From NCBI RefSeq assembly GCF_014204535.1, contig NZ_JACHLR010000004.1:248001-312000 (forward strand): DNA of 64,000 nt. Direction: 5' to 3'. Shown piece after piece: positions 40,481-56,589 of the stretch (position 1 is its first letter; each line of letters begins with the position of its first letter). The position numbers and the translations under genes were made by a program. The stretch comes from Novosphingobium chloroacetimidivorans (GTDB lineage Bacteria > Pseudomonadota > Alphaproteobacteria > Sphingomonadales > Sphingomonadaceae). Under the pieces are notes generated by a model. The model was not told where the DNA came from and did not search any database. It was given only the letters and a program-made list of their open reading frames with translations.

Positions 40481-41320
40481 ATGTCCGTCATCAACACCAA
40501 CATCTCCGCCATGAAGGCTTCCAACGCTTCGATCAGCGCCAACAAGGCTCTGGGCACCTCGATGGAGCGCCTCTCGACCGGCAAGCGCATCAACTCCGCC
40601 AAGGACGACGCCGCCGGCCTCGCGATCGCCACTTCGATGACCTCGTCGATCAAGGGCATGAGCCAGGGCATCCGCAACGCCAACGACGGCATCGCCATGG
40701 CGCAGACCGCTGAAGGCGCACTGGGCGAAGTCACCAATATGCTGCAGCGCGTCCGCGAGCTGACCGTGCAGTCGAAGAGCGGCACGTATTCCGACGATGA
40801 CCGCGCGCTGATGCAGAAGGAAGTTACCCAGCTGCAGGGCCAGATCACCAGCACCTTGTCGAATACCGAATTCAACGGCACCAAGCTGTTTGACGGATCG
40901 GCCGGTGCGGATGCCGATGGCACCGTGAAGATTCAGGTCGGCGCCAATGCCGACGACACCATCGATCTGGCGTTCGGCACCGATCTCGCGGCCGGCGATG
41001 GCATGACTGCTGCTCTTGCCGTCGACATCAGCGCGCTCGACGCCGATGGTACCGAGTTGGAAGACCTGGATACCGCGATTGGTGAGGTTTCCAGCCTTCG
41101 CGCAGACTTGGGCGCCGCGCAGAACCGTCTCGAATCGTCGGTCAACACGATGACCACCAACGTCACCAACCTTTCAGATGCACGTTCGCGCATCGAGGAC
41201 ACCGACTACTCGGCCGAGACGACTGCGCTCGCCAAGTCGCAGATCCTGTCGCAGGCTTCGACCGCGATGATCTCGCAGGCCAACCAGAGCCAGCAGAACG
41301 TCCTCTCGCTGCTGCGCTAA
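40481..41320 (+). CDS. fliC: Flagellin
   Basis: A 279-residue flagellin. The N-terminal D0/D1 ([18 protein letters not shown], then [20 protein letters not shown]) and C-terminal D1/D0 ([20 protein letters not shown], ending QQNVLSLLR) are fully conserved. The central region is very short, so the surface-exposed D2/D3 domains are missing. It is transcribed alone, divergent from the fli operon, and ends in a strong terminator, which fits a highly expressed filament gene. Confidence 0.96.
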
Positions 41321-41364
41321 TCGCGGCAGCCTAGACGGCTAGCCTGCCCCCAGCGGCAGGTACG

Positions 41365-41400
41365 GGCCCGGCGGTGTTCCCCAGACCGCCGGGCCTTTTT
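41365..41400 (+). terminator. Rho-independent terminator of flagellin
   Basis: An 11-bp perfect stem (GGCCCGGCGGT at 41365-41375 paired with 41385-41395), a nine-base loop and a run of five T. It lies 45 bases after the flagellin stop and is the best intrinsic terminator in the window. Confidence 0.93.
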
Positions 41401-41721
41401 GCGTCTGCGATCCCTGCCTATGCCTGGGCACACTTTCGCTCGCCGGGATTACGACGGACCGGCGCGAGGCACTGCTTCGGCGTCGGATGGTACGCGCGTG
41501 CCTCCCGGCGAGGGACGCACTTACAGAATTGTAAATTGTGCGAATCGGCTGAACATGGTTGCTAAAAGATGAAGATCGCGGGCGCTGGTCGCTCGCGAAG
41601 TTCATGGGGCATTGAAGATCGAAGTCTGAAGCAGCGCTCGGGCCAGTGGCTCGGAGCGCTGAGTAAATCTGACCAAGCATGGCTTATCGCAAGGCGCGAA
41701 ATCGTGATCCAAGGAGGATTC
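41401..41721. other. 321-base region upstream of gmd without a supported gene
   Basis: The gmd frame stays open upstream to 41569, but the AAGGAGG site and family homology place the start at 41722. An AT-rich patch near 41525-41565 is the likeliest promoter area for the polysaccharide locus; I cannot define boxes. Confidence 0.5.
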
Positions 41722-42786
41722 ATGAGCAGGAAAGTTGCACTCATCACCGGCGTGACTGGGCAGGACGGTGCGTATCTTGCCGAACTACTCCTGGATAAGG
41801 GCTACGAAGTTCACGGCATCAAGCGCCGTTCGAGTTCCTTCAACACCGGCCGCATCGAAGCGATGTACCAGGACCCGCATGTCGAGGGTGCACGCTTCCA
41901 CTTGCACCACGGCGACCTCACCGATTCGTCCAACCTCATTCGCATCGTACAGCAGGTGCAGCCGACCGAGATCTATAACCTGGCGGCCCAGAGCCATGTG
42001 CAGGTCAGCTTCGACACGCCGGAATATACCGCCAACGCCGACGGGATCGGCACCCTGCGCCTTCTGGAAGCCATCCGCATCCTCAAGCTCGAGGACCGGA
42101 CCCGCTTCTACCAGGCATCCACGTCCGAGCTCTACGGCATGGTGCAGGAAGTGCCGCAGCGCGAATCGACGCCGTTCTACCCGCGCTCGCCGTATGGCGT
42201 CGCCAAGCTCTACGGCTTCTGGACGACGGTGAACTATCGCGAGGCTTACGGGCTGCACGCGTCCAACGGCATCCTGTTCAACCACGAGAGCCCGCTGCGC
42301 GGAGAAACCTTCGTCACGCGCAAGATCACTCGCGGCGTCGCGGCGATCAAGCTGGGGCGCCAGGACAAGCTCTGGCTCGGCAACCTCGATGCCAAGCGCG
42401 ACTGGGGTCACGCGCGTGACTACGTGCGCGGCATGTGGATGATCCTCCAGCAGGACGATCCCGATGACTACGTGCTCGCCACCGGTGAAACCACGCAAGT
42501 GCGCCGCTTCGTTGAGTGGGCGTTCGAGGATGTCGACATCGCGCTCGAATGGGACGGGCGCGAGGCGGACGAGAAGGGCTATTGCCGCCGCACCGGCAAG
42601 TGCCTGGTCGAAGTCGATCCGCGCTACTTCCGTCCCACCGAAGTCGACCTGCTGATCGGCGATCCGAGCAAGGCCAAGCAGCGGCTCGGCTGGAGCCACG
42701 AGACACCGGTGCGCGACCTGGTGCGCGAGATGGTGACGGCTGACTTGGCGTTGATGCGCCACGCGCCGCTCGCCCAGGCGCTCTGA
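41722..42786 (+). CDS. gmd: GDP-mannose 4,6-dehydratase
   Basis: A 354-residue short-chain dehydrogenase that makes GDP-4-keto-6-deoxymannose. The NADP motif is [14 protein letters not shown] near residue 10. The catalytic Tyr/Lys pair is Y158/K162 ([12 protein letters not shown]). [19 protein letters not shown] is a GMD hallmark. AAGGAGG stands just before the ATG. The product is the substrate of the next gene, so the locus should make GDP-L-fucose. Confidence 0.96.
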
Positions 42787-42792
42787 CGGGCG

Positions 42793-43752
42793 ATGGACAC
42801 GCCTCGGTTCGACCTGAAGGGCAAGCGCGTCTTCGTCGCCGGTCATCGTGGCATGGTCGGCTTGGCGCTGGTCCGGCGGCTGGCGCGCGAGGACTGCGAG
42901 CTGCTGACAGCGGATCGCGCGCAGCTCGACTTGCGCGACCAGGCTGACGTGCGCGCCTGGTTCGCCGAGCAGCGCCCGGCCGCGGTGTTCCTGGCGGCGG
43001 CCAAAGTCGGCGGCATCCTTGCGAACGACAGCTATCCGGCCGATTTCCTTCTCGAAAATCTGCAGATCGCCACCAACGTGATCGAAGCGGCGCATCACTA
43101 CCGCACCGCCAAGCTGCTATTCCTGGGCTCCAGCTGCATCTACCCGCGCGACGCTGCGCAGCCGATCCGGGAAGGCGCCTTGCTTACCGGCGCACTGGAA
43201 CCGACCAACGCATGGTATGCGGTCGCCAAGATTGCCGGGATCAAGCTGTGCGCGGCCTACCGCCGCCAGCACGGCTGCGACTTCATCTCGGCCATGCCCA
43301 CCAATCTCTACGGACCGGGCGACAACTTCGACCTTTCCGCCAGCCATGTGCTGCCAGCGCTGATCCGCAAGGCGCACGAGGCGAAACTGAGCGGCGCGGC
43401 GTCCATGACCATCTGGGGCAGCGGCACCCCGCGTCGCGAGTTCCTGCACGTCGACGATCTCGCCGATGCCTGCGTCTTCCTGATGGAGCGCTACTCGGGC
43501 GACGAGCATGTCAACGTCGGCTCGGGGTGGGACATCCCCATCGCCGAACTCGCCGCCCTGGTGTGCGACGTGGTGGGGTTCGGCGGTGAGATCCGCACCG
43601 ATCCGTCCAGACCGGACGGCACCCCCCGCAAGCTGATGGCCGGCGACAAGCTGGCCGCGCTCGGCTGGCAACCGCGCATCGCCCTGCGCGAGGGAATTAC
43701 GGCTGTCTACCGGGCCTATCGCCAGGCAAGCGAGCTGGAGCAGGCGGCGTGA
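42793..43752 (+). CDS. fcl: GDP-L-fucose synthase
   Basis: A 319-residue epimerase/reductase that converts the Gmd product to GDP-L-fucose. The nucleotide motif GHRGMVGLALVRRL, then FLGSSCIYPRDAAQPI and the active-site pair in YAVAKIAGIKLC are present. It starts six bases after gmd and overlaps the next transferase gene by four bases. Confidence 0.95.
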   Translation: MDTPRFDLKGKRVFVAGHRGMVGLALVRRLAREDCELLTADRAQLDLRDQADVRAWFAEQRPAAVFLAAAKVGGILANDSYPADFLLENLQIATNVIEAAHHYRTAKLLFLGSSCIYPRDAAQPIREGALLTGALEPTNAWYAVAKIAGIKLCAAYRRQHGCDFISAMPTNLYGPGDNFDLSASHVLPALIRKAHEAKLSGAASMTIWGSGTPRREFLHVDDLADACVFLMERYSGDEHVNVGSGWDIPIAELAALVCDVVGFGGEIRTDPSRPDGTPRKLMAGDKLAALGWQPRIALREGITAVYRAYRQASELEQAA

Positions 43753-44963
43753 ACGTCCTGATCGTCGGGCTGAACTACGCGCCCGAGCCGGTGGGGATCG
43801 GTCCCTACACCGCCGGCATGGCCGCTTCGCTGGTCAGGGCGGGGCACGAGGTCACCGTTATCTGTGCCAAGCCCTACTATCCGCAGTGGCAGGTCGCGGC
43901 GACGGACCGCGGCCTGCGCGCACGGCGCAGCGAGGAGGCCGGTGTGCGCATCGTGCGCGTGCCGATCTATGTCCCTGCCGTCCCCAGCGGCGCGCGGCGC
44001 GTGCTGCATCATCTGAGCTTTGCGCTCTCGGCTCTGCCTGCGGTGCTCGCGGCCGCGACCCGCCGGCGGCCCGACGTCGTCATCGCGATCGCGCCATCGC
44101 TGATCTCGACCGCCATCGCGCGGATCGCCGCGCGGCTGACCGGCGCCAAGCTGTGGCTCCATGTGCAGGATTTCGAGGTCGCCGCCGCAGGGGCGGTCGG
44201 CTTGCTGCGCAAGCCCTGGCTGATGCGCCTGGCGCGTGCGTTCGAGGGGTGGTCGCTGCGGGCCGACCGGGTGAGCACGATCTCGCCGCAGATGTGCGAC
44301 GGCCTGGCGAAGCGCGGCATCGCGCCACGCCGGATCGTCGAGTTCCGCAACTGGGCAACGCTCGACCGATCTGCCTCGTCCGAAGTTCACGATTATCGCC
44401 TTGAGTGGGGGATCGATCGCCCGCATGTCGCGATCTACTCCGGCAGCATCGCCAACAAGCAGGGCCTCGATCTCATCCTCGAGGCAGCGCGGCGCCTCAG
44501 CCATCGGCGCGACCTGGTCTTCGTGGTGTGCGGCAACGGTCCGCAGCGAGAGCGGCTGATCACCGCCGCGGCGGGGCTCGACAACATCCAGTTCCGCGAC
44601 CTGCAGCCCGCGGCGCGGCTGGGCGAATTGCTCGCGCTCGCCAGCGTGCACCTGCTGCCGCAAGTCGCCGATGCGGCCGACTTGCTGCTGCCGTCCAAGC
44701 TGACCAACATGCTCCAGTCTGGGCGACCCGTGGTGGCGACGGCAGTGCACGGCACGGCACTCGCCCACGAGGTCGAGGGGTGCGGCATGGTCGTGCCGCC
44801 GGGTGACGGACACGCCTTTGCCGCCGCGATCGAGCGATTGATCGACCACCCGGAACTGGCGGCGACGCTGGGTGCGCAAGGCCGCCAGCGGGCGCAGGAG
44901 CGCTGGAGCGCACCGCAGATCCTCGGCCGTTTCGAACGGCAGCTATGCGAACTCGCCGCATGA
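43749..44963 (+). CDS. WcaI-type GT4 glycosyltransferase
   Basis: A 404-residue GT-B glycosyltransferase. The start MNVLIVGLNYAPEPVGIGPYT closely matches colanic acid WcaI. The C-terminal nucleotide-sugar domain includes AIYSGSIANKQGLDLILEAA and LLLPSKLTNMLQSGRPVVATA. The order gmd-fcl-wcaI is the same as in the colanic acid locus without gmm, so it may transfer fucose or an adjacent sugar in the repeat unit. The GTG start overlaps fcl. Confidence 0.88.
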   Translation: MNVLIVGLNYAPEPVGIGPYTAGMAASLVRAGHEVTVICAKPYYPQWQVAATDRGLRARRSEEAGVRIVRVPIYVPAVPSGARRVLHHLSFALSALPAVLAAATRRRPDVVIAIAPSLISTAIARIAARLTGAKLWLHVQDFEVAAAGAVGLLRKPWLMRLARAFEGWSLRADRVSTISPQMCDGLAKRGIAPRRIVEFRNWATLDRSASSEVHDYRLEWGIDRPHVAIYSGSIANKQGLDLILEAARRLSHRRDLVFVVCGNGPQRERLITAAAGLDNIQFRDLQPAARLGELLALASVHLLPQVADAADLLLPSKLTNMLQSGRPVVATAVHGTALAHEVEGCGMVVPPGDGHAFAAAIERLIDHPELAATLGAQGRQRAQERWSAPQILGRFERQLCELAA

Positions 44964-45054
44964 GTTCGCATTTTGTTCTTTCCTACAGCATGCCGATGCG
45001 CATAGTCATCCGGCTCCTCACGCCGCGGGTCGTCCCCGCCATCAGGAGCTGCCC

Positions 45055-45393
45055 ATGACCTTCCAGATCACCGCACCGGCCGCCTATGTGCCGCAGACCG
45101 CCATCGCCTTTGCCGCGCCCGAAGGTGCCGCGCTCGTCTCCGACAACTCGCCGCTGCCGATCAGCGAGCCGTCCTATCGCGGCGCGCGGCCGATCGCCCT
45201 CGACACGCCCTTCGCGTCCGCTCGCGCGATTGCGGTGATCGCGCAAGGACCTGGCAACGTCGCCTTCCGCTTCGGCGATGCGAGCACGATCGCGGTGCCG
45301 GTCGCAGTGGGGCTGACCGTCCTGCCGTTTGCCGCGACCCAGATCGTCGCTGCGGGCACCACGGCCCCCGCCACCTTCCACGCACTGGTCTGA
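45055..45393 (+). CDS. Small protein resembling phage/GTA head-spike base proteins
   Basis: A 112-residue, strand-rich protein with no membrane segment. The C-terminal half (FRFGDASTIAVPVAVGLTVL, then PFAATQIVAAGTTAPATFHALV) resembles, from memory, the Rcc01079-type spike base family of gene transfer agents and phages, which shows a similar LP...I.A.GTTA ending. The ATG has AGGAG seven bases upstream. It begins a new translational unit 91 bases after the transferase gene and directly precedes an SGNH hydrolase of phage-spike type. The assignment needs a profile search. Confidence 0.6.
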   Translation: MTFQITAPAAYVPQTAIAFAAPEGAALVSDNSPLPISEPSYRGARPIALDTPFASARAIAVIAQGPGNVAFRFGDASTIAVPVAVGLTVLPFAATQIVAAGTTAPATFHALV

Positions 45394-45408
45394 GGGAGGA
45401 CGCCGCAG

Positions 45409-46806
45409 ATGCTTGCCGTCATGTCCCCCGCCGCCAGCCCGCGCGAAGTCGCCAACCAGCGCCTGCTCTCCCGCCTGCGCCGCGCCGCTTCGCGCGCGAG
45501 CCTTTCCAACCCGCGCAATGCGGGGCTGCATGTCACCCCGCCGACGATCACCGACAACGGCGCGACCAGCCCGCCGATCACCGCCGCCAATCCCTACGCC
45601 TGCAATGCCGTGAGCCAGGGCGTGTGGCACGTCGTCGGTGGCCGCTATGGCAGCGCCGGCCGCATCGCTGCCGGCGTGCAGGACGCGCTCGGCAACGAGC
45701 TCAACACGTACGCCCGCTGGGAAGTCATGGCGGACAGCCGGTACTTCACCGCGCGGGTCGGGCCGACCACCATGCCCTACCGCTTCATCGTCGATGGTCG
45801 CTACGTGTCGCTGACCGGAACGGTGCTGGCGACCACGTCGGGTAATACCGACCAGTATCTGACCCTCGATTTCGGCTCCCGCAGCGTGCGGCGCATCGTC
45901 GTCGAGGCGATGCGCACCGGGCGACTGAACGGCGGTTACGTCGAGGATGGCGCCTCGCTCTGGCCGGTCGATGCCAGCGAGACGCCGCATGGCGTGTTCC
46001 TGGGTGACAGCTACGTCTTCGGCTCGGGGCCGGACTTTACCGCCGATGGCGTCGCCGTGCAGATGGCCGATCGCATGGGCGTGGCGTTGCAGGCGAGCGG
46101 ATCGGGCGGCACCGGCTGGAACCAGACCGCGACCGGCATCCACCGCTTCGACCAGCGGATCGCGGGCGGTGACCTGACGGTGGGTTATCGCGCGCCGGAG
46201 GTCGTGTTCCTGCACGCCTCGGTCAACGACGCCTACATCGGCCAGAACGCGGCGACCTTGCAGGCCCATGCTCTGGCCGGCCTGCGCGCGGCGCGTGCGC
46301 AGTTGCCCGGCGTGCCGATCGTCGTGTTCGGCTGCATCGCCGCGCCCAATCGCACGGCCGCCACGGTCACGGTGGCCGAGAGCGCGGTGGCCGCAGCGGT
46401 CACCGCCTTCGCCGATCCGCTGTGCCGCTTCGTTCCGGTCGACAGCGATCCAGGCGGCAAGTGGGTCAGCGGTCTGGGCTCGGAGCTGCGCTTCACCGCT
46501 CCGCTGACCGCCGCCATCAGCGCCACGCTGGCGACGGCCTGGCCGGCGGGCAGTTCGGCATCGACTTACACGATCCTGTTCTCCGACGGTTCCACTCGCC
46601 TGGCGACGCTGACGCAGAACGCCACGAGCGTCAGCTGGACCGGCGCAGTCACCGCCGGGGCTACCGCCATGGTGCGCCAGACCGAGGGCAACCCGCGCTT
46701 TACCATGCACGCCGACTGGATCCACCCGAGCAACTACGGCGCGGCGTACCTTGGCGAACGCTACGCCCGTGGCGCCCTCGCGGCATTGGAGGCGATGCTG
46801 GGATGA
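45409..46806 (+). CDS. SGNH/GDSL hydrolase of phage-spike type within the polysaccharide operon
   Basis: A 465-residue protein. The first 185 residues form a strand-rich region. The SGNH esterase domain follows, with the nucleophile S201 in FLGDSYVFGSG, the Asn block HASVNDAYIG and the D436/H439 pair in DWIHPSNYG. Between the third block and the catalytic His, residues about 385-428 hold an inserted strand-rich segment (YTILFSDGSTRLATLTQ) of a kind I associate with phage tail proteins. It may deacetylate the polysaccharide. Its stop overlaps the start of the next glycosyltransferase gene. There is no signal peptide. Confidence 0.82.
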   Translation: MLAVMSPAASPREVANQRLLSRLRRAASRASLSNPRNAGLHVTPPTITDNGATSPPITAANPYACNAVSQGVWHVVGGRYGSAGRIAAGVQDALGNELNTYARWEVMADSRYFTARVGPTTMPYRFIVDGRYVSLTGTVLATTSGNTDQYLTLDFGSRSVRRIVVEAMRTGRLNGGYVEDGASLWPVDASETPHGVFLGDSYVFGSGPDFTADGVAVQMADRMGVALQASGSGGTGWNQTATGIHRFDQRIAGGDLTVGYRAPEVVFLHASVNDAYIGQNAATLQAHALAGLRAARAQLPGVPIVVFGCIAAPNRTAATVTVAESAVAAAVTAFADPLCRFVPVDSDPGGKWVSGLGSELRFTAPLTAAISATLATAWPAGSSASTYTILFSDGSTRLATLTQNATSVSWTGAVTAGATAMVRQTEGNPRFTMHADWIHPSNYGAAYLGERYARGALAALEAMLG

Positions 46807-47975
46807 CCGATGCGTGCGGCCATGGCGAGGCTCTGACGACGGCGACGCACATGCGCGTCGCCGTCGTCTACCATGCCTGGCCGCACTATCGTGAGCCGGT
46901 GATGCGGGCGATGGATTGCAGCCGGTCCATTGCCTACGACTTCTACGGCAGCGGCGAGGCGCTGGAGGGCGTGCTGCACGCCGACCCGCATGCCGTCAGC
47001 CGCTTCGTACCCGCGCCGTTCCGTCGCTGGCGCAATCTGGTCTGGCAACCCGGCGCGGTGCGCGCGGCGATGACCGGGCGTTATCAGGCGCTGATCCTGT
47101 TCGCCGATCCCAACTTCGCCTCAACCTGGGTCGCGGCGGCGATCGCCCGCCTGCGTGGTCGGCCGGTGTTGTTCTGGGGACACGGCTGGCTGAAGCCGGA
47201 GGGCAGGGCCAAGCGGGCGATGCGCAGCGCCTACTTCGCGCTCTCGCATCGGCTCCTCGTCTACGCCGAGCGCGGACGCCGGCTCGGTGTCGCCGCCGGC
47301 TTCGCGCCAGAGCGGATCACGGTGGTCTACAACAGCCTCGACGTCGAGCGTGCCGATGCGTTGGTCGCTGCGATCGAGGACGGGTCCCTGGCGGCTTGCC
47401 CGCAGGCGCTGTTCCCGGACACTTCGCACCCGCTGCTGATCTGCACGGCACGGCTGACCGCGAAGTGCCGGTTCGACTTGCTTCTGCAGGCCGCCGCCCG
47501 CCTCTCGGCGCAAGACCGGCCGGTGAACGTGTTGCTCATCGGGGATGGGCCAGAGCGCGGACGCCTCGAAGCTCTTGCGCAGGCGCTCGGCGTAAGCGCG
47601 CACTTCCTGGGCGCCTGTCATGACGAAGCGATCGTCGGTCCGATGATCTACCATGCCGACCTGACCGTCTCGCCGGGCAAGATCGGTCTCACCGCGATGC
47701 ACAGCCTGATGTACGGCACGCCCGCCATCACTCACGGCGACTTCGACGCGCAGATGCCCGAGGTCGAAGCGATCGAAGCGGGCGTGACCGGCGCTTTCTT
47801 CTGCCGCGACGATGCCGACGATCTTGCCGCCACGATCGCGCAGTGGCTCGCCCAGGCGCCGCCGCGCGCGCAGGTTCGCGCCGCCGCGCGCGCTGCGATC
47901 CACGCCAAGTGGACGCCGCAGGTGCAGGCGCGGATCATCGAACAAGCCGTACTGGAGGTTGCCGGCCATGCCTGA
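46803..47975 (+). CDS. GT4-family glycosyltransferase
   Basis: A 390-residue GT-B glycosyltransferase. The N-terminal domain begins MRVAVVYHAWPHYREPVMRA (after a short leader). The donor domain includes LLICTARLTAKCRFDLLLQA and VLLIGDGPERGRLEALAQALG. The ATG at 46803 overlaps the hydrolase stop by four bases; an ATG at 46851 is an alternative. Substrate unknown. Confidence 0.85.
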   Translation: MTDACGHGEALTTATHMRVAVVYHAWPHYREPVMRAMDCSRSIAYDFYGSGEALEGVLHADPHAVSRFVPAPFRRWRNLVWQPGAVRAAMTGRYQALILFADPNFASTWVAAAIARLRGRPVLFWGHGWLKPEGRAKRAMRSAYFALSHRLLVYAERGRRLGVAAGFAPERITVVYNSLDVERADALVAAIEDGSLAACPQALFPDTSHPLLICTARLTAKCRFDLLLQAAARLSAQDRPVNVLLIGDGPERGRLEALAQALGVSAHFLGACHDEAIVGPMIYHADLTVSPGKIGLTAMHSLMYGTPAITHGDFDAQMPEVEAIEAGVTGAFFCRDDADDLAATIAQWLAQAPPRAQVRAAARAAIHAKWTPQVQARIIEQAVLEVAGHA

Positions 47976-48579
47976 GCGCGCGCTTCTCACGCAAGTGCCC
48001 GAACCGCAGCGCGTGACGGACGCCATGATCGTCCGCTGCCGCGCCGAGGTCGAGGGCAGCGCCAAGGCGGCGGTGCGCCGGCTGCTGCTGCCCTGGCTGC
48101 GCCGGCGGTTCCGGTTCGCGGAACTGGGCGAGGGATTTCAGTGGGGCGCGGAACTGATCGTTGGCGCGGGCAGCCGGGTCGGCCGCTTCGCCTACCTCGG
48201 CCCCGGCTTCGCCTCGCACGGACCTGTCGTGGTGGGAGACTTGTGCATGGTGGCGGCGGGGTGCCGGATCGTCGGCGCGGACCATGTGTTCGATCGAGCG
48301 GGTACGCCGACGCGGCTCGCCCGTCCGGACACGCCGCGCCAGGTGACGACCTTCGGGGCCGATGCCTGGATCGGCGAGCGGGTGACGATCCGCGAAGGCG
48401 TCACCATCGGTGCGGGCGCGGTGGTCGGCTCCGCCGCCACCGTCGTCCGCGACGTGCCGGCCTACGCTGTCGTGGCGGGCACCCCGGCCCGTCTTGTCCG
48501 CGAGCGTTTCGGACCGCGCGAGCGCATGCTGCACGAACAGGTTGTGACCGGGCGTTCGGCCCTGGAGGTGGCCGCGTGA
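47968..48579 (+). CDS. Left-handed beta-helix acyltransferase
   Basis: A 203-residue protein with hexapeptide repeats (IVGAGSRVGRFAYLGPG, then VTIREGVTIGAGAVVGSAATV) and the typical ending VPAYAVVAGTPARLVRERF. It is likely an O-acetyltransferase acting on the repeat unit. It overlaps the previous gene by eight bases and the next by four. The presence of acetyltransferases fits with a possible esterase in the same locus. Confidence 0.85.
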   Translation: MPERALLTQVPEPQRVTDAMIVRCRAEVEGSAKAAVRRLLLPWLRRRFRFAELGEGFQWGAELIVGAGSRVGRFAYLGPGFASHGPVVVGDLCMVAAGCRIVGADHVFDRAGTPTRLARPDTPRQVTTFGADAWIGERVTIREGVTIGAGAVVGSAATVVRDVPAYAVVAGTPARLVRERFGPRERMLHEQVVTGRSALEVAA

Positions 48580-49559
48580 TCCGCGCTCTGGTGCCGGGGA
48601 AGGCGGCTGTGGTGCCCGCCAGCGGAGGCTCGGTCCGCGATGGCTTCCTGCCGGGTGTGACCACAGTCATCCTCACCTTCGACGAGGAGCCGCACATCGC
48701 CCGCGCTATCGAGAGCGCGCGCAGGTTCTCGCGCGAGGTGCTGGTGGTCGACTCGTTCTCGCGCGACCGCACCGTCGAGATCGCGCGGTCGCTGGGTGCG
48801 CGGGTCGTGCAGAACGCCTGGGTCAACTACGCGCGCCAGTTCCGCTTCGCGCTGGAGGAGTGCGGCATCCGCACCGAGTGGATCCTGCGGCTCGATGCGG
48901 ATGAGCTGATCGGCGAGGATCTCGCCGTGCGCCTTGGCGAGACATTGCCGCGCTTGCACCCGGACGTGACCGGCGTGGTGCTCAGCCGGCGGCATCATTT
49001 CATGGGCCGATGGGTGCGGCATGGCGGACGCTATCCGCTCCGGCTGCTGCGGCTCTGGCGCAACGGCCTGGGCGAAGTCGAGGACCGCTGGATGGACGAG
49101 CATGTGCGGGTGCGCAGCGGCCGCACCATCGCCCTGCGGGGGCTGTTTGCCGATGCCTGCGAGCGCGACGTCGCCTTCTTCGTCGCCAAGCACAACGGCT
49201 ATGCGGCGCGCGAGGCGATCGACGTGCTCGATCGCAGGTACGGCCTGTTCGGCCCGCGCCCCACCCTGACCTGCGCCGCGAGTGGCTGGCAGGCGCGTCT
49301 CAAGCGGCTGGCGAAGGAGGGCATCTACAACCGCTTGCCTTTCGGCGTCGGGCCGATCGCCTACTTCCTGTACCGCTACGTCCTGCAGCTGGGCTTCCTC
49401 GATGGCCGGGCGGGACTGGTCTACCATGTGCTGCAAGGCTTCTGGTACCGCTTCCTGGTCGACGTGCGCGTGCTCGAACTGGAACGGGCGATGCGCGGAT
49501 GCGGGACTCGCGACGAGCGGCTCGCCGCGTTGCGCCAGGCGACGGGGTTGAAGCTGTGA
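48576..49559 (+). CDS. GT2-family glycosyltransferase
   Basis: A 327-residue inverting glycosyltransferase with a GT-A fold. Key segments are VTTVILTFDEEPHIARAIES near residue 30, VDSFSRDRTVEIA and the metal motif LRLDADE. The C-terminal part (LPFGVGPIAYFLYRYVLQLGF) is partly hydrophobic and may touch the membrane, as in WaaE/KdtX-like enzymes. The GTG start overlaps the preceding stop (GTGA). Confidence 0.88.
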   Translation: MIRALVPGKAAVVPASGGSVRDGFLPGVTTVILTFDEEPHIARAIESARRFSREVLVVDSFSRDRTVEIARSLGARVVQNAWVNYARQFRFALEECGIRTEWILRLDADELIGEDLAVRLGETLPRLHPDVTGVVLSRRHHFMGRWVRHGGRYPLRLLRLWRNGLGEVEDRWMDEHVRVRSGRTIALRGLFADACERDVAFFVAKHNGYAAREAIDVLDRRYGLFGPRPTLTCAASGWQARLKRLAKEGIYNRLPFGVGPIAYFLYRYVLQLGFLDGRAGLVYHVLQGFWYRFLVDVRVLELERAMRGCGTRDERLAALRQATGLKL

Positions 49560-50170
49560 CCCTGGCGGCACGCGCGTCCGCTCCCAACCCGGTGCTGGAT
49601 GCTCGCGAAACCAGCCCGCGCACCGGTGGTGCCAGCTTCACCCTGCGGCTGCGGATCGCGCGCGTGATGTTCGGCCTGTGCTGGCTGCTGCTGGCCGCCT
49701 GGACGCCGCCGGCCTTGCGCGGCTGGCGCCGGCTGCTGCTGCGCGCGTTCGGGGCGAAGCTGGGCCGCGGCGCGAACGTCTATGCCAGCGCGCGCATCTG
49801 GCACCCGGCCCACCTCGTCATGGGCGACTATGCGACGATCGGCCGAAGGGTGAACTGCTACAACCAGGCCATGGTGAGCCTGGGTGACTACGCCGTGGTC
49901 TCGCAGGACGCGACGCTGTGCGCCGGCACCCACGACTACGACGATCCCGAGTTCCAGCTGCACACCCGCCCGATCGCTCTGGGTCCACATAGCTGGGTCG
50001 CGGCGGAGGCCTTCGTCGGTCCGGGAGTGGTGGTCGGCGACTATGCCGTGCTGGGCGCGCGCGGTGTCGCCATGCGCGATCTTGCCGCCGGCATGGTCCA
50101 TGCCGGCCATCCCGCCGTGCCGATCAAGCGCCGCGCGCTCGCGCCGGACAGGCCCAAGTCCGTCGCATGA
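49556..50170 (+). CDS. WcaF-type acetyltransferase
   Basis: A 204-residue hexapeptide acyltransferase. A hydrophobic segment (FGLCWLLLAAWTPPALRGW) precedes the beta-helix (ANVYASARIWHPAHLVMGDY, then VVSQDATLCAGTHDYDDPEF), as in colanic acid WcaF. It would O-acetylate a sugar. GTG start overlapping the GT2 stop. Confidence 0.87.
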   Translation: MTLAARASAPNPVLDARETSPRTGGASFTLRLRIARVMFGLCWLLLAAWTPPALRGWRRLLLRAFGAKLGRGANVYASARIWHPAHLVMGDYATIGRRVNCYNQAMVSLGDYAVVSQDATLCAGTHDYDDPEFQLHTRPIALGPHSWVAAEAFVGPGVVVGDYAVLGARGVAMRDLAAGMVHAGHPAVPIKRRALAPDRPKSVA

Positions 50171-51516
50171 TGCATCTCATCCTCTGGACGCTGTACCTGG
50201 GCGGAGTCGCGATCAACCTGCACATGTTCGCACGCATCGACCTGTCGCGGCTCGACTTCCTGGACGGTATCCTGATCGGCCAAGGCTATTACGTCATCGT
50301 GCCGCTGGGCGTCTTCCTGGCGACCGGGCAGGCGGAGGTTCCCGACCTGCACCTTGTCTACCGGCCCTATGGCGACCTTGCGACTACCGGCATGCTGATC
50401 GGCGGCATGTACCTGTTCCCGGCACTGCGGACCGCCTTCGGCCGCGTCCATCCCGAACGTCCCGATCGCAGCGACCCGCGCATGGTCTCCACCGTGGTCA
50501 TGCTGTTCATCGTGACCGGCGCGGTGTCGTTCATGCTCACCGGTCTTGCGAGCGGCGGCCACTGGCAGGAGAACGTCGACGGCGCCTTCGCCAACCCGGC
50601 TTTCCTGCCGATCAAATACGCCGCCAACGTGGCGCGCAACGCGGTCTTCGCGGTGCTGCTGTACCGTGTGACGCGCGGGGAGATGACGATCGGCCTGGCG
50701 CTCCTGGCCGGCCTCATGCTGGCGCTGATCGACCTGTTCACCACCTTCAACCGCATCACTGCTGTCTACCTGCTGATCATGGCCATGCTGTTGATGAAGC
50801 GGATGCCGGTGCGCCTGATTCTGGTGGCCGCAGGAAGCCTGGTCGGCCTGTCCGCCTTCAGCACGGTGTGGCCTGCGTTCCGCGGTCTTGCCACCACGCA
50901 GGGCTATTCGGCGGCCTCGTTCGCTGAGGCCTGGAACACGGCGCGCCGGGCGCAGGAAATGTCTTCGGCAAGCCTGGACGCCTCGCTGAACGGCGTGTTC
51001 GAATCCTCCAACATCGTCGTGCTCAACTGGATCGTGCAGCACTATGGCGCTGTCGAACGGCCGTTCCTGTCGTTCGCCATGTTTGCGCGTCCGGTGACTC
51101 TGCTGCTGCCGGGGGCGGTGTGGCCGGGCCGGCCGGAAAACTTCGGTCTGTCGTTGGGCGAGGGGATCGCGCACATGCCCTCGCTCGCGCTGAACTCTAC
51201 GCTTTATGGGGAGAGCTTTGCCAACTTCGGCTGGTTCTGGCCGCTTGGGCTCTGCGCCTTCGTGCTGCTGTGGCACGGTGTCTACCGCGCCATCGCCCCC
51301 AACGCGCGCGTGGTGCAGACGATGGGCGCCTTCGCGGCAATCGCGATGTGGCGGTTCGATGCGTCTTTCGTCGGCTGCGCGGCGCTGCTGACCGGCGCGC
51401 TGGTCTGTGCCTTGTGGCTCATCCGGGTCAGCCGGCTCAAGTCGGTGGGCCACTTCTACTTCCTCAGCGCCGCGAGCGTCGTCTCCGCAGGGTTCCTGGC
51501 GGGTCAGATTCGGTGA
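50167..51516 (+). CDS. Polytopic membrane protein, probable polysaccharide polymerase (Wzy-like)
   Basis: A 449-residue protein with about ten hydrophobic segments and a large loop near residues 255-330. Wzy polymerases are poorly conserved, so the call rests on topology, a position just before the flippase and the lack of any other polymerase candidate. An ATG at 50167 overlaps the acetyltransferase stop. Confidence 0.65.
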   Translation: MMHLILWTLYLGGVAINLHMFARIDLSRLDFLDGILIGQGYYVIVPLGVFLATGQAEVPDLHLVYRPYGDLATTGMLIGGMYLFPALRTAFGRVHPERPDRSDPRMVSTVVMLFIVTGAVSFMLTGLASGGHWQENVDGAFANPAFLPIKYAANVARNAVFAVLLYRVTRGEMTIGLALLAGLMLALIDLFTTFNRITAVYLLIMAMLLMKRMPVRLILVAAGSLVGLSAFSTVWPAFRGLATTQGYSAASFAEAWNTARRAQEMSSASLDASLNGVFESSNIVVLNWIVQHYGAVERPFLSFAMFARPVTLLLPGAVWPGRPENFGLSLGEGIAHMPSLALNSTLYGESFANFGWFWPLGLCAFVLLWHGVYRAIAPNARVVQTMGAFAAIAMWRFDASFVGCAALLTGALVCALWLIRVSRLKSVGHFYFLSAASVVSAGFLAGQIR

Positions 51517-52865
51517 TCCGGCGCGTGGCGGCCGGCATCGGCATGACGGCGTTCGACAAGCTGGTGGTCGCCGGTACGCAACTGCTGCTGGTGCCGATCC
51601 TTGCGGGTCATTGGGGGCTGGAACTCTACGGCCAGTGGCTGATCCTGGCGACGCTGCCTCAGTTCCTCAGCATCAGCGACTTCGGCTTCGCGACGGCGGC
51701 CGGCACGCGCATGACCATGGCAGCGGCACAAGGCGACCGCCAGGAAGCGATGCGGATCTTCCAGAGCGCGTGGCGCGCGATCCTCCTCACCTCTACCGGC
51801 ATGATCGTGCTCGTCCTGCTGCTGGCATTGTGCCTGCCGAGCGCGCTGTTCGGAGCGCACCCTGTGGCACCGGTCGAGGACTTGCGCCTGACCATGGCGG
51901 TGCTGGGGCTCTATGGCGTCGTGGCGGTGCAGGGCGGCATCTTCTTCGCAGGCTTTCGCGCCGCGCAGCTCTTCCCCATCGGCGCGTTCTGGAACGCGAT
52001 CGTCCTGCTGATCGAGAATGCGGCGCTGATAATCACCGTGGCGTCGGGCGGCGGGCCGCTCGCGGCGGCATGGGCGTGGCTGGTCGGGCGACTGATCGGG
52101 CTCGCCGGGCAGAACTGGCTGCTGCGGCGCAAGGTGCCGTGGCTGACGATCGGCCTGGCGCGGGGTAGCTGGAAGGAGGCCCGGGCCCTGCTGGCGCCGG
52201 CCGGCGCCATCATGCTCATGCCGGTCGCGCAGGCGGTGGTGCTGCAGGGCACCGCGTTGGTCGTCGGCGCCGTGGCCGGGCAGGGGGCGGTTCCCGTGTT
52301 CGCCGCGGCGCGCACGCTGTCGCGGGTCGGCATGCAGCTGTGCTGGATCGTCAGCACACCCTTGATGCCCGAGTTCTCCGCCGCGGCTGCGCGCGAGGAC
52401 CGGCAGGCGATGGCGGCGATGGTGCTGGCACTGATGCTGGTCTCGGCGGCGCTGGTGCTGCCTTATGCGCTGGGGTTCGCGCTTCTCGGCGGCCCGGCGA
52501 TCGCGCTGTGGACCCACGGTGCGATCCAGGCCCCTGCGGCGCTGGTCGCGGCGATGGGCCTGGCGATCGCGGCGGGAGGACTATGGTATCCGCTTTCCAC
52601 CCTGATGCTCGCGCGCGATCGGCAGGCGCGGTACACCGGCTGGTACCTCGCCTTGTCGCTGGCGAGTCTGTCGCTAGCGGGGGGGCTGGTCGCCATGCTG
52701 GGAGTAAGCGGCGGCGGCATCGGCCTTGCCGTGCTCGATCTGGCCATGCTGGTCGTGGTCGCGCGGCTCGCCTGCCGTCATCTCGCCACGCCAGCCGAAC
52801 TGCGCCAGGCATGCCGGGCAGTGTGGCGGACCATCCAAGCACGCAGGGCAAGGCTCGCCAGATAG
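51513..52865 (+). CDS. Polysaccharide flippase (Wzx/MATE-like)
   Basis: A 450-residue membrane protein with about twelve hydrophobic segments. The start MTAFDKLVVAGTQLLLVPILAGHWGLELYG region resembles oligosaccharide flippases, which move lipid-linked repeat units across the inner membrane. The GTG overlaps the previous stop (GTGA). It is the last gene of the locus. Confidence 0.8.
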   Translation: MIRRVAAGIGMTAFDKLVVAGTQLLLVPILAGHWGLELYGQWLILATLPQFLSISDFGFATAAGTRMTMAAAQGDRQEAMRIFQSAWRAILLTSTGMIVLVLLLALCLPSALFGAHPVAPVEDLRLTMAVLGLYGVVAVQGGIFFAGFRAAQLFPIGAFWNAIVLLIENAALIITVASGGGPLAAAWAWLVGRLIGLAGQNWLLRRKVPWLTIGLARGSWKEARALLAPAGAIMLMPVAQAVVLQGTALVVGAVAGQGAVPVFAAARTLSRVGMQLCWIVSTPLMPEFSAAAAREDRQAMAAMVLALMLVSAALVLPYALGFALLGGPAIALWTHGAIQAPAALVAAMGLAIAAGGLWYPLSTLMLARDRQARYTGWYLALSLASLSLAGGLVAMLGVSGGGIGLAVLDLAMLVVVARLACRHLATPAELRQACRAVWRTIQARRARLAR

Positions 52866-52985
52866 CCTGGAGCATTTTCAAGTTGACCGTTCACGGTCAA
52901 CGTCTCGGAAAATGCGGCATCGAGAGCCTGGAGCATTTTCAAGTTGACCGTTCACGGTCGATGGCTCGGAAAATGCGGCATCGAC
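52864..52985. repeat. Two tandem 61-bp nested palindromic repeats
   Basis: Two head-to-tail copies (52864-52924, 52925-52985) differ at a few positions. Each has an inner palindrome TTGACCGT-TC-ACGGTCAA (52883-52900 in copy 1; one mismatch in copy 2), flanked by GCATTTTC and GAAAATGC. They begin at the flippase stop codon and could act as transcript-end or stability structures. Confidence 0.92.
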
Positions 52986-53140
52986 AAACCTAAATCGTCT
53001 TCGCCCATAGTGCATCCGCTTTAGCGGCATTTCCAAGTATGTTTAAGGGTTGTTCATCTTATTACGCTTTAATACGTAGGCGCCGTAGAAGAGCGTGGAA
53101 ATACTGGTCGCATCCGAAACTATCCCCAAAGGAGTGTCGT

Positions 53141-53314
53141 ATGCAATTTCTCAAGAGCCTTCGTTCGGACAAGAAGGGCGCAACCGCCATCGAGTACGGC
53201 CTTATCGCAGCCCTGATCGCCGTCGCTGCGATCACTGCCATGGCCGGACTGGGCAGCTCGTTGACCTCGACGTTCACCAAGACGTCTTCGACCTTGCAGA
53301 ACAACAACGGCTGA
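53141..53314 (+). CDS. Flp/Fap-type IVb pilin
   Basis: A 57-residue pilin with the Flp pattern: a short basic leader (MQFLKSLRSDKKG), then ATAIEYGLIAALIAVAAITAM, with a glycine before the cleavage site and Glu5/Tyr6 of the mature form. A Thr/Ser-rich tail follows. AAAGGAG stands upstream. No tad/cpa assembly or prepilin peptidase genes are in the window, so it would depend on a distant Tad system. Confidence 0.92.
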   Translation: MQFLKSLRSDKKGATAIEYGLIAALIAVAAITAMAGLGSSLTSTFTKTSSTLQNNNG

Positions 53315-53329
53315 TAACAAGCCGTCATA

Positions 53330-53372
53330 GCCGATGCAGGAGGAGGGCCATGGGTCCTCCTCCTGCATCGGC
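53330..53372. terminator. Long hairpin between pilin and SnoaL-like pseudogene
   Basis: A 17-bp perfect stem with a nine-base loop lies directly between the convergent pilin gene and the pseudogene. No T-run follows on either side. It is probably a bidirectional terminator or mRNA 3' stabiliser. Confidence 0.6.
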
Positions 53373-53373
53373 C

Positions 53374-53851
53374 TCAGGCGTCGAACAGTCCTGGCAACAC
53401 TTCGTCGATCATCAGCGTGTACGCACGCAGGCTGAACCGCCGCATACCATCAGGCTTCACCGGAGCGTCGTCGTAGCGGCCCGCCAGCTTGAAGGTGGCG
53501 CCCGATTTCAGGCGCATGATTTCCCATGCGTAGGAGCGGCACCGCGCCGCCTCGCCGGCGATCTCCATCGCTCTCCATCGATCCGATCTCGCCCAGGAAG
53601 GCGACCGACTGCCAATCCTGCCACAAGCCGTCCCATGTCGCGCGCAGCGCTGCGTGGCCGCTGGCGTCGAACAGGTGGCTGGTCCAGCGCCCGTCCGGGG
53701 TGAAGCAGCCGAGCCACTGCTCGCCATCGCCACGCCTCGCCATCGCCACGCCTCGCCATCGCCACGCCTCGCCTCGCCAGCTCGCGTCGGCATAGGTGCC
53801 GTACAACTCGCGGATGGCGAACCAATCCTCGATCCTCCCGGTGAACGTCAT
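53374..53851 (-). pseudogene. SnoaL/NTF2-like protein, frameshifted by a 10-bp tandem duplication
   Basis: The frame from ATG 53851 reads IEDWFAIRELYGTYADASW and CFTPDGRWTSHLF up to FLGEIGSMES. The matching continuation (ARCRSYAWEIMRLKSGATF, LRAYTLMIDEVLP) is in another frame. The switch coincides with a tandem duplication of 10 bases (53562-53571 and 53572-53581), which shifts the frame. The gene also contains three copies of a 16-bp repeat (53722-53769) that adds about 14 residues in frame. The intact family would be a small NTF2-like enzyme or binding protein of about 140 residues. Confidence 0.8.
53722..53769. repeat. Three tandem copies of a 16-bp repeat
   Basis: Three identical copies of CGCCATCGCCACGCCT at 53722, 53738 and 53754 lie inside the SnoaL-like pseudogene. 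Changes in copy number would shift the reading frame, as 16 is not a multiple of three. Confidence 0.93.
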
Positions 53852-53917
53852 GTCCTATCCTCCCGCTTCTTGCGCCGATGGCGCGGCGTCGAGGTGGAGA
53901 GCACAAGGCGGGTGGCG

Positions 53918-54769
53918 TCAGTCCAGCAGCAGTATCGAGATCCGGCGGTTGCGCGGATCGGCCGGGTTGCCGGGGATCAGCAGTTCGCGATCGGCAACGC
54001 CTTCGATGCGGTTGAAGCGCATCTCGCCGATGCCGTCGCGCAGCAGCGCCTGGCGTGTCGCCTCCGCGCGGCCGGCCGAGAGCGACCAGTTGTTGCCCGG
54101 CACGCCATCGCGCCACGGCGTCGCGTCGGTGTGGCCGCGGATCGTCAGCGAGCCCTGGTCGGGCCCCACCGCCTGGGCGATCGCCACCAGCAATGTGCTG
54201 GCGTCGGGTGTCAGCACCGTGGTGCCGAGGCGGAACATCGAGAAGTCGGCATCGTCGACCAGGTCGATCCGCACGCCCTCGGTGGTGTCGACCATGCGCA
54301 CCTGGCGGGCGAGCTTGCGTAGCGCCTCGGTGGACTTGAGCTTCTGCTCCAGCGCCTGCTTGGCACGGGCGGTGCGCTTGATCTTGGTGCCGCCCTCCTT
54401 GGGGCCGCCGGTCGCATCGCGCGGGATCGTGATCGACTTGGTGCCCGTCTGCCCGGCGCGATGCGGATACTTGTCGGCATCCGTCAGCGATGAGCCGCCG
54501 AGCAGGCCCGCGGCCGAGCCGGCGCTGCCGTTCTGGGTCTTCACCAGCGTGGGCGAGAAGTAGTCGGCGATGCCCTTGCGCTGCTTCTCGGTGGTGGCGC
54601 CCAGGATCCACAACAGCAGGAAGAACGCCATCATCGCGGTCACGAAGTCGGCATAGGCGACTTTCCACGCGCCGCCATGGTGCCCGCCGGCAACGATCGT
54701 CACCTTCTTGACGATGATCGGCGCGGGCAGTTCGTTCTTGCCGCGCTTGCTGGCGGGCGCGCTGGCCAT
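53918..54769 (-). CDS. motB: Flagellar stator protein MotB
   Basis: A 283-residue MotB. After a basic N-terminus (VKKVTIV) comes the membrane segment with the proton-carrying aspartate D41 (AYADFVTAMMAFFLLLWI). A plug region follows, then the OmpA-like peptidoglycan-binding domain (LTIRGHTDATPW, NRRISILLL). The ATG at 54769 lies next to the motA stop. Confidence 0.94.
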   Translation of the reverse strand: MASAPASKRGKNELPAPIIVKKVTIVAGGHHGGAWKVAYADFVTAMMAFFLLLWILGATTEKQRKGIADYFSPTLVKTQNGSAGSAAGLLGGSSLTDADKYPHRAGQTGTKSITIPRDATGGPKEGGTKIKRTARAKQALEQKLKSTEALRKLARQVRMVDTTEGVRIDLVDDADFSMFRLGTTVLTPDASTLLVAIAQAVGPDQGSLTIRGHTDATPWRDGVPGNNWSLSAGRAEATRQALLRDGIGEMRFNRIEGVADRELLIPGNPADPRNRRISILLLD

Positions 54770-54770
54770 C

Positions 54771-55634
54771 TTAGCGGGCCCGCATCGCGTCGAGCAGTTC
54801 GGACAGGCCGGGGCGGAACGCATGGCCCAGGCCCGAGCGCGCGCTTTCCACGACCAGCGGCTGCGGCCAGCCGTGCAGGCTTGCGATCACCACTTGCTTC
54901 ACGGCGTGGAAGATCATCTCGTCCTGCTCGACGATCTGCTTCAGGCGGCCGGCCATCGGCGCAACGATCCCGTAAGCCAGCAGCACGCCCATGAAGGTGC
55001 CGACCAGCGCCGAGCCGATCATGCCGCCCAGGATCGAGGGCGGCTTGTCGATCGAGCCCATCGTCTTCACCACGCCGAGCACGGCGGCGACGATGCCCAG
55101 CGCGGGAAGCGCGTCGGCCAGGGTCTGCAGCGCGTGCTGCGGCTCGTGCATCTCGTGGAAGGTGGTCTTCATCGCATTGTCCATCACCTCTTCGACCGCA
55201 TGGGTCTCGAGCGTGCCGGAGGAGACGACGATCAGGGTCAGGGTGTCGCAGATCAGCGCGATCAGCGGCTTGTTGGCCAGCAGGCGCGGGAACTCGGCGA
55301 AGAGGGAGGAGGACTGCGGATCGGTGACGTGCGATTCCAGCGCGACCGGGCCTTCGGCGCGCAGCAGCTTCATCAGCCGGCTGACCAGCACGATCGCGTC
55401 GATGTGGTCCTGCTTGTTGTGCTTGGGGCCCTTGAAGATCTTGGCGAACGAGCCGCCCAGGCCCTTCAGCTCATGCATCGAGTTGCCGGTGACGATGGCG
55501 CCCAGCGCGGCGCCGCCGATGATCAGCATCTCGTGCGGGATGGCGTGCATGACCGGGCCAAGCGCACCGCCGGTGAGGGCGAAGCCGCCGAACACCATCA
55601 CCAGCAGGATGACTACACCAACTGCAGCAAACAT
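54771..55634 (-). CDS. motA: Flagellar stator protein MotA
   Basis: A 287-residue MotA with four membrane segments, two near the N-terminus and two at about 170-225 (PALGIVAAVLGVVKTMGSID, LVGTFMGVLLAYGIVAPMAG). The cytoplasmic loop that contacts FliG lies between. It forms the stator with MotB, encoded next. Confidence 0.95.
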   Translation of the reverse strand: MFAAVGVVILLVMVFGGFALTGGALGPVMHAIPHEMLIIGGAALGAIVTGNSMHELKGLGGSFAKIFKGPKHNKQDHIDAIVLVSRLMKLLRAEGPVALESHVTDPQSSSLFAEFPRLLANKPLIALICDTLTLIVVSSGTLETHAVEEVMDNAMKTTFHEMHEPQHALQTLADALPALGIVAAVLGVVKTMGSIDKPPSILGGMIGSALVGTFMGVLLAYGIVAPMAGRLKQIVEQDEMIFHAVKQVVIASLHGWPQPLVVESARSGLGHAFRPGLSELLDAMRAR

Positions 55635-55658
55635 GGCTTCGTTACCTTAGAAAGTGCG

Positions 55659-56582: not shown

Positions 56583-56589
56583 GATGGCC

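Follow-up and report, generated by a model that had tools for sequence, protein, structure and literature searches.

The best-described counterpart of the locus reported here is the head spike of RcGTA, the gene transfer agent (GTA) of Rhodobacter capsulatus, in which a small jelly-roll base (Rcc01079) is followed by a fiber gene (Rcc01080; ghsA/ghsB). Three reports place these genes outside the head-tail cluster, next to capsule genes, and among the late GTA genes (PMC7296036, PMC10218006, PMC9638019). Here, we analyzed a stretch of 64,000 nucleotides (nt) from Novosphingobium chloroacetimidivorans, hereafter the window, in which two open reading frames (ORFs) show a similar layout: a 112-residue protein, P0001, is followed by a 465-residue SGNH hydrolase, P0002. 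Unlike the RcGTA spike genes, this pair stands inside an exopolysaccharide (EPS) operon, between glycosyltransferase genes, and its promoter carries a LexA-type box. Its putative base is longer than that of RcGTA (112 versus 84 residues) and has a family-specific arm, while its putative fiber is an SGNH hydrolase in which the (Gly-Leu)3 N-terminal repeat is missing.

Two further systems bear comparison. RcGTA TspA is a baseplate-associated beta-helix tailspike, reported in a preprint as lacking outside Rhodobacterales (PMC13420450). The same idea in our window would be a GTA-associated enzyme acting on extracellular polysaccharide, with an SGNH hydrolase in place of the beta-helix protein. Phage SGNH virion proteins (PHROG 9703, PHROG 15641, and Cronobacter phage S13) likewise carry an SGNH domain on a virion protein; they are encoded in phage genomes, whereas the window gene is chromosomal and lies in an EPS locus. 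PHROG 9703 matches P0002 and the partner protein at another locus (L056), and PHROG 15641 matches the partner at a third (L049).

Our analysis indicates that the pair probably encodes the head spike of an RcGTA-like GTA native to this genome, as an ectopic operon set within the EPS operon. The case draws on the R. capsulatus precedent, on the fold of P0001, and on a promoter element shared with GTA genes. We regard the locus as a GTA-type head-spike operon within an EPS operon, a variation on the R. capsulatus arrangement that bears an enzyme and recurs across the family; no title on sphingomonad GTA spikes in EPS loci appeared among the open-access matches listed. The coordinates of both ORFs were confirmed, and the features of the pair are as follows.

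44964-44978, + strand: GTTC-N7-GTTC box of LexA (SOS) type, abutting the stop codon of the upstream glycosyltransferase gene (exact match; predicted site)
44979-44987, + strand: promoter element TTTCCTACA of the pair (TCCTACA counts)
45055-45393, + strand: P0001, spike-base-like protein of type I, 112 residues (NF048002, PHROG 12296, fold)
45064-45168, + strand: arm at the N terminus of P0001 (about residues 4-38), thought of here as the segment that would dock on a particle (alignment A2, 37-residue profile)
45172-45390, + strand: jelly-roll domain, about residues 40-112 (AlphaFold2 model, VIA)
45409-46806, + strand: P0002, SGNH hydrolase, 465 residues, proposed spike fiber and enzyme (Lipase_GDSL_2, PHROG 9703)
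45409-45444, + strand: N-terminal peptide MLAVMSPAASPR of P0002, proposed plug into the base
46003-46011, + strand: block I G-D-S (residues 199-201), with Ser201 as the proposed nucleophile (read from the sequence)
46714-46725, + strand: block V D-W-I-H (residues 436-439; Asp436 and His439) (read from the sequence)

A preliminary description of this DNA had likened P0001 to spike-base proteins, and the resemblance survives both profile search and fold comparison. P0001 matches the NCBIfam family NF048002 (spike base protein, RCAP_Rcc01079 family) with an E value of 1.5e-5 and 25.2 bits, under the cut-off of 28; at E ≤ 0.01, the same family matches 11 of 17 aligned relatives, P0001 included, the best at 2e-8. 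It also matches PHROG 12296 (tail fiber) at 4e-4. A profile built from the 17 relatives ranks an unrelated FtsI chain (E = 0.01) ahead of the RcGTA base structure, 6tb9, which it reaches only at an E value of 0.65. The AlphaFold2 model of P0001, built from 13 sequences, has a mean predicted local distance difference test score (pLDDT) of 71.7. Residues 1-5 and 11-37 fall below 50, so the arm is predicted to be disordered in the monomer, and block means are 76-91 from residue 41 on. In the VIA fold comparison, rank 1 is the RcGTA base Rcc01079 (6tb9_A1; Z 8.8, 76 aligned residues, root-mean-square deviation [rmsd] 6.3), followed by the Carin1 phage capsid 8cjz (8cjz_h; Z 7.5) and two entries of the STIV turret protein A223 (Z 7.4). 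A VIA Z score under 8 may reflect a common arrangement only, and 6tb9 alone exceeds this value; a family that VIA does not list is not thereby excluded. In Foldseek, 8cjz is the top hit (E = 2.0e-3), and 6tb9 comes next with an E value of 6.4e-3 and an rmsd of 2.0 over 73 columns; no hit falls below 0.001. Both comparisons assign an Rcc01079-like jelly-roll fold to the predicted model, and the four best fold rows, all of them virion proteins, lend further weight. A plasmid search with P0001 gave no match. Weak hits of P0001 in its own genome outside the window (L002 and L003) were discarded, as no arm could be recognized by eye.

P0002 matches Pfam Lipase_GDSL_2 (PF13472) at an E value of 2.4e-10 and 41.6 bits, above the cut-off of 32.9. 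This match, together with the GDS, VND (residues 272-274), and DWIH motifs, which we take to be SGNH blocks I, III, and V, places it in the SGNH/GDSL family as a predicted hydrolase. It had been called an enzyme of the kind found in phage or GTA spikes, and its phage relatives are distant: PHROG 9703 (head decoration) matches at 2.5e-16, and 15 phage records match at E ≤ 0.01, the best at 3e-7, none of them covering 80% of P0002. Neither of the outcomes that would have contradicted the preliminary description, a small protein without a spike-base profile match or a hydrolase related to proteins of capsule loci alone, was observed: P0001 matches such a profile, albeit below its cut-off, and P0002 has distant phage relatives. 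A scan of viral contigs with P0002 alone found no relative among them. In a separate scan, the sole relative returned was the N. fluoreni hydrolase (L006), which is 81% identical and points to the genus Novosphingobium. Measured against the N. fluoreni copy, both genes are under purifying selection (NG86 ratios of nonsynonymous to synonymous substitution, dN/dS, of 0.24 for P0001 and 0.14 for P0002). The structure model of P0002 was unusable (mean pLDDT of 40, two sequences) and was not taken into a fold search. No signal peptide was seen by eye on P0001 or P0002.

To what extent does the pair recur? At E ≤ 0.001, P0001 has relatives in 24 of 397 genomes of the Sphingomonadaceae (own genome included, with what seem to be a few false hits among the weakest), while P0002 has relatives in six of the 397 at E ≤ 1e-5, again counting its own. 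In the neighborhoods of the relatives, an enzyme-like gene as a rule comes right after the base gene. Some hits had only the first residues of the base in common. At E ≤ 0.01, a profile of this 37-residue arm (A2) has matches, many of them weak, in 57 of 249 genomes, and it has them on two types of base. From these hits, 50 neighborhoods were picked by hand as a selection, and 45 arm-matching loci (the window and L006 included) were counted; as close relatives are among them, the counts are not independent. Three loci that look prophage-like by eye (L123, L145, and L150) and two judged spurious (L140 and L151; E = 0.0019 and 0.0013) were dropped. Nineteen of the 45 loci have an Rcc01079-like base (type I), 22 have a different domain, likewise conserved and roughly 105 residues long (type II; alignment A3), and four are fused or unclear (L126, L127, L132, and L144). 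Five type II bases compared with PHROGs and NCBIfam gave no match. Alignment-based scans were unproductive, the conserved stretches being too few.

The partners differ with the base. Every one of the 19 clear type I loci has a partner ORF downstream, and in all 19 a proline at position 7 can be read from a start codon (18 ATG and one TTG, in L045), within a short, hydrophobic N terminus (MLAVMSP, MLALHVP, MLQTIQP, and the like). Pro7 also occurs at the likely start of three of 22 type II partners (L125, L137, and L139); 19 of the 22 have AR[GA] within the first 14 residues (from GTG starts in L042, L124, and L138). In the other three, this motif follows a signal-peptide-like stretch (L131) or is missing (L137 and L139). 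None of the 19 type I partners has it in the first 14 residues when read from the Pro7 start, although some have it further in. At the best-fitting starts, base type and fiber N-terminal motif go together in these sequences; the starts were chosen to fit the motif, which biases this linkage. Most partners exceed 370 residues. Six of 10 partners scanned match Lipase_GDSL_2 at E ≤ 0.01, four of them above the cut-off, one has a weak pectate-lyase-like match, and three have none. At some other loci the partners measure 650-760 residues, and of three such partners tested it is one that gave this pectate-lyase-like match, which lies below the cut-off. Such a picture would be expected of exchangeable fibers set on bases with a docking arm.

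Some loci depart from this pattern. The arm lies inside a larger protein in L144 (7286-8011) and L127 (6309-7466); in the former, the frame that encodes it continues as far as a GDS-type motif, possibly joining arm and SGNH hydrolase in one protein. L141 and L147 have shortened fibers beside an intact base at a leuS-lptE-holA site, where related genomes have an EPS locus. In L131 (7508-7774), the fiber gene is cut by the contig end and starts signal-peptide-like before ARG, whereas the base has no such stretch.

The association with EPS genes extends well beyond the window. A survey of further sphingomonad loci, proposed in the preliminary description, showed that the pair recurs and that, by tblastn with a reference set drawn from the same loci, at least two EPS genes lie at 32 of 45 pair loci versus none of 28 control loci. 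With only the ten references confirmed by Pfam, at least two EPS genes are found at 28 of the 45 and at least one at 34, compared with any at none of 32 controls. The reference set is biased towards pair loci and the control loci are shorter on average. Exceptions include four relatives in one genus (L044, L046, L047, and L049), where no EPS gene was found close to the pair, and the shortened pairs of L141 and L147.

The pair also has a promoter signature of its own. The gap of 91 nt ahead of P0001 holds both the LexA-type box and TTTCCTACA. As controls we took 323 other upstream regions of the same loci, after removal of 70 that overlapped. TCCTACA is present upstream of 39 of 45 pair loci versus three controls, AACC-N5-GGTT upstream of 23 versus none, and the LexA-type box upstream of nine versus four. 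Genes for the GTA holin (PF11351), found in 29 of 32 hand-chosen genomes, share the first two elements: within 250 nt of the match start, 22 of 29 have TCCTACA and 18 have AACC-N5-GGTT, with three matches being partial, so that the true promoter is not in the stretch. In 20 GTA head-tail promoters, taken as the regions upstream of terminase genes (that of the window genome and 19 from a hand-picked set of 20, in which L196 yielded no terminase), a relaxed TAACC-N5-GG occurs in 14, versus seven of 323 controls, and the strict form in four. A composite, TTTCCTACA-N2-TAACC-N5-GGTTA, searched with at most two mismatches, was found in 14 of 20 arm-positive genomes at 15 sites, all exact. Fourteen of these are at the pair and one is ahead of a helix-turn-helix (HTH)-like gene (L215 in genome G259), and the reversed pattern gave none. 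The composite was drawn from pair promoters, and its fixed 3-nt spacer missed holin promoters, where the spacer is mostly 2 nt. In the window genome, a GTA_holin_3TM gene (PF11351, E = 1.6e-10) likewise has TTTCCTACA ahead of it, as does a gene for a muramidase (PF11860, E = 4.7e-63); both lie outside the GTA cluster. In L215, L218, L225, and L230, TTTCCTACA stands with LexA-type or AACC-N5-GGTT elements ahead of HTH-like genes and a ParB-like gene.

The LexA-type box is found upstream of the base in L006, L038, L039, and L045 as well. It lies directly before TTTCCTACA in the window, L006, and L045, before TTTCCAACA in L038, and after TCCTACA in L039. Some 30 nt ahead of its ATG, the genome's own lexA carries such a box, GTTCGCCAATTGTTC. 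One report proposes that, in R. capsulatus, the influence of LexA on RcGTA runs via CckA and CtrA (PMC6363796).

A GTA-like gene cluster to which such a spike could belong is present. Another contig of the window genome (G000:C16, loci L089 and L090) has an RcGTA-like head-tail cluster with genes for large terminase, portal, prohead protease, major capsid protein, an Rcc01695-family distal tail protein, and hub; its megatron-like protein is short (723 residues), with a partial NF048004 match below the cut-off. The distal tail protein (L089, 15360-17690) is fused to a large N-terminal region (776 residues; PHROG 6040). As a marker for GTAs we used PF09343, found in 252 of 397 genomes; PF13547 (GTA_TIM) was dropped, as it matched one of the 397 at E ≤ 0.001 and none over the cut-off.

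How would such an operon work? We propose that P0001 is the spike base, whose N-terminal arm would dock on the particle, presumably the GTA head, while its jelly-roll would carry the fiber. A base of the Rcc01079 type would be expected to sit at a capsid vertex as a pentamer, attached by its N termini. P0002 would be that fiber, held by its N-terminal peptide, and may act as an esterase or a lectin on the EPS made by the flanking genes; O-acyl groups are a plausible target because the cluster has two hexapeptide acyltransferase-like genes. With its own promoter, of the GTA-holin type and with a LexA-type box that LexA may bind, the pair would be expressed by a cell on the verge of particle release. 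The preliminary description had suggested a domesticated polysaccharide-binding or -modifying device, which is right in kind. Two findings, the promoter element shared with GTA holin genes and the RcGTA-like cluster of the genome, allow us to narrow this to a GTA-type head-spike operon.

Several observations weigh against a GTA head spike. The co-occurrence of arm and GTA is weak: taking the 249 genomes to be G000-G248, PF09343 is present in 22 of 30 genomes with a strong arm match versus 144 of 219 others (P = 0.27) and, at an arm E value of ≤ 0.01, in 44 of 57 versus 122 of 192 (P = 0.037). When 17 genomes positive for the arm or the base, of which 16 lack PF09343, were searched with the GTA capsid protein of the window genome (arm-positive G086 stood outside this recheck), 13 had no match at E ≤ 1e-5, and six of these (G002, G015, G078, G235, G326, and G232) are estimated to be 100% complete. 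The capsid protein is present in the remaining four, in G154 with an internal stop. TCCTACA occurs in none of the 20 GTA head-tail promoters, and AACC-N5-GGTT is absent from the window pair and L006, the window carrying TTTCCTACA and the LexA-type box instead. TTTCCTACA is itself unspecific: the window genome has 16 sites versus 10 for the reversed control, several of them inside genes and some ahead of ParB-like and HTH-like genes. In viral contigs, the jelly-roll sits in what appears by eye to be a tail-fiber region, not a head module. The signal-peptide-like start of the L131 fiber would be unfit for cytoplasmic assembly, and the RcGTA fiber N terminus, Ile-Ala-Leu-(Gly-Leu)3, is absent, MLAVMSPAASPR resembling it only in hydrophobic residues after Met. 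On the site counts of TTTCCTACA, we rejected it as a signal exclusive to GTAs.

Four of the genomes with no capsid match (G002, G015, G138, and G326) nevertheless keep both the pair and a GTA holin. Either their GTA cluster was lost recently or the late genes are useful without a GTA. A different and considerably less likely explanation is that the pair is a host device of phage origin that is no longer linked to a particle and modifies the cell's own EPS, for example by trimming O-acyl groups. Its persistence in GTA-less genomes, the purifying selection on both genes, the enrichment of EPS genes around the pair, and the acyltransferase-like genes of the same cluster all speak for such a role. 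Yet Wzy-type polymerization is periplasmic, and neither window protein has a signal peptide recognizable by eye; moreover, the promoter element is common to GTA holins, and in four loci of one genus the pair persists where no EPS gene was found close by.

Viral sequences offer a further alternative. The jelly-roll domain recurs in viral contigs, where no arm is convincing: across 23 viral loci, the arm search gave two marginal whole-sequence hits, whose best single stretches have E values of 0.12 and 0.47. By contrast, arm-bearing proteins occur in the prophage-like loci L123 and L145 and, weakly, in L150. The pair might be a receptor-binding cassette left or borrowed by prophages, with phages taking a spike from the host EPS locus that matches the coat. 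The jelly-roll at the C terminus of viral-contig proteins would fit, and a 2026 preprint tested whether phages harness a host-encoded GTA component (PMC13420450). We nevertheless regard this as improbable. Phage-record searches with single queries gave no match for two bases and one weak match outside the arm for P0001, no phage genes were recognized beside the pair in EPS loci, and the conserved promoter and wide spread argue for a function kept by the host. In scans of viral sequences, neither the L049 partner nor the L050 base gave a viral relative. The notion that the pair is a passenger matching a virus to this capsule, also raised in the preliminary description, is less likely: jelly-roll-bearing viral contigs lack a convincing arm, although L123 and L145 do carry one. 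That the pairs are leftover spikes, decaying and retained by accident after their GTA or prophage was lost, is most improbable: the shortened fibers at a site without EPS genes, the internal stop in the G154 capsid gene, and the GTA-less genomes keeping pair and holin are set against intact ORFs with low dN/dS in the window, the conservation of TCCTACA, and the length of most partners.

As further observations on these loci, the viral contigs L159, L161, L162, and L173 have the jelly-roll at a protein C terminus, followed by a protein of 726-862 residues with a signal-peptide-like start, in some cases near an endolysin-like gene (by eye). The arm-bearing proteins of L123, L145, and L150 also start signal-peptide-like by eye.

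If the pair is a GTA head spike, the EPS loci of Sphingomonadaceae could be heritable blocks that join coat synthesis to an enzymatic spike recognizing the same coat. Swapped together, they would keep GTA transfer among cells of the same coat, a greenbeard-like form of kin recognition, while fiber enzymes are exchanged on conserved docking arms. We offer this as a tentative idea that falls somewhat short of even odds. Receptor polysaccharides have been argued to confine the benefit of GTAs to close relatives (PMC10883770). This bears on why costly GTAs persist, and a locus encoding coat and spike would make the argument from relatives directly testable in sphingomonads; a cell coat and a particle's means of recognizing it may be inherited together. 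The arm and promoter motifs also provide a way to find candidate GTA receptor-binding genes, including those with type II bases.

The genes surrounding the pair are as follows.

41722-42786, + strand: GDP-mannose 4,6-dehydratase (PF16363, E = 2e-155)
42793-43752, + strand: GDP-L-fucose synthase (NF047922, E = 3.7e-153)
43749-44963, + strand: WcaI-family glycosyltransferase of family GT4 in the EPS cluster, upstream neighbor of the pair (NF007640, E = 1.5e-142)
46803-47975, + strand: GT4 glycosyltransferase, downstream neighbor (PF00534, E = 1.2e-17)
47968-52865, + strand: remaining EPS cluster (hexapeptide acyltransferase, GT2 glycosyltransferase, second hexapeptide protein, Wzy-like, Wzx-like)

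The pair thus lies between two glycosyltransferase genes, as first described, and the P0002 stop overlaps the start of the downstream one by 4 nt. Downstream, the two hexapeptide acyltransferase-like genes match PF00132 (E = 2.1e-11 for the first and 1.4e-6 for the second) and the GT2 gene matches PF00535 (8.8e-14). The Wzx-like gene matches NF041503 below the cut-off (0.0017), and the name Wzy-like (50167-51516) was given by eye to a gene without a family match. This order, from GDP-mannose dehydratase, GDP-fucose synthase, and WcaI-type glycosyltransferase through the pair to GT4, hexapeptide, GT2, hexapeptide, Wzy-like, and Wzx-like genes, mostly recurs in L006 and L038. The earlier remark that no other phage gene is nearby agrees with the neighbors scanned with Pfam and NCBIfam, a part of the window's genes and without PHROGs, which are EPS and flagellar genes. 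Within 40481-57927, the EPS cluster is inserted among flagellar genes, with flagellin directly upstream and motB, motA, and flgK-like genes downstream. A small Flp/Fap pilin ORF lies in the same region, at 53141-53314.

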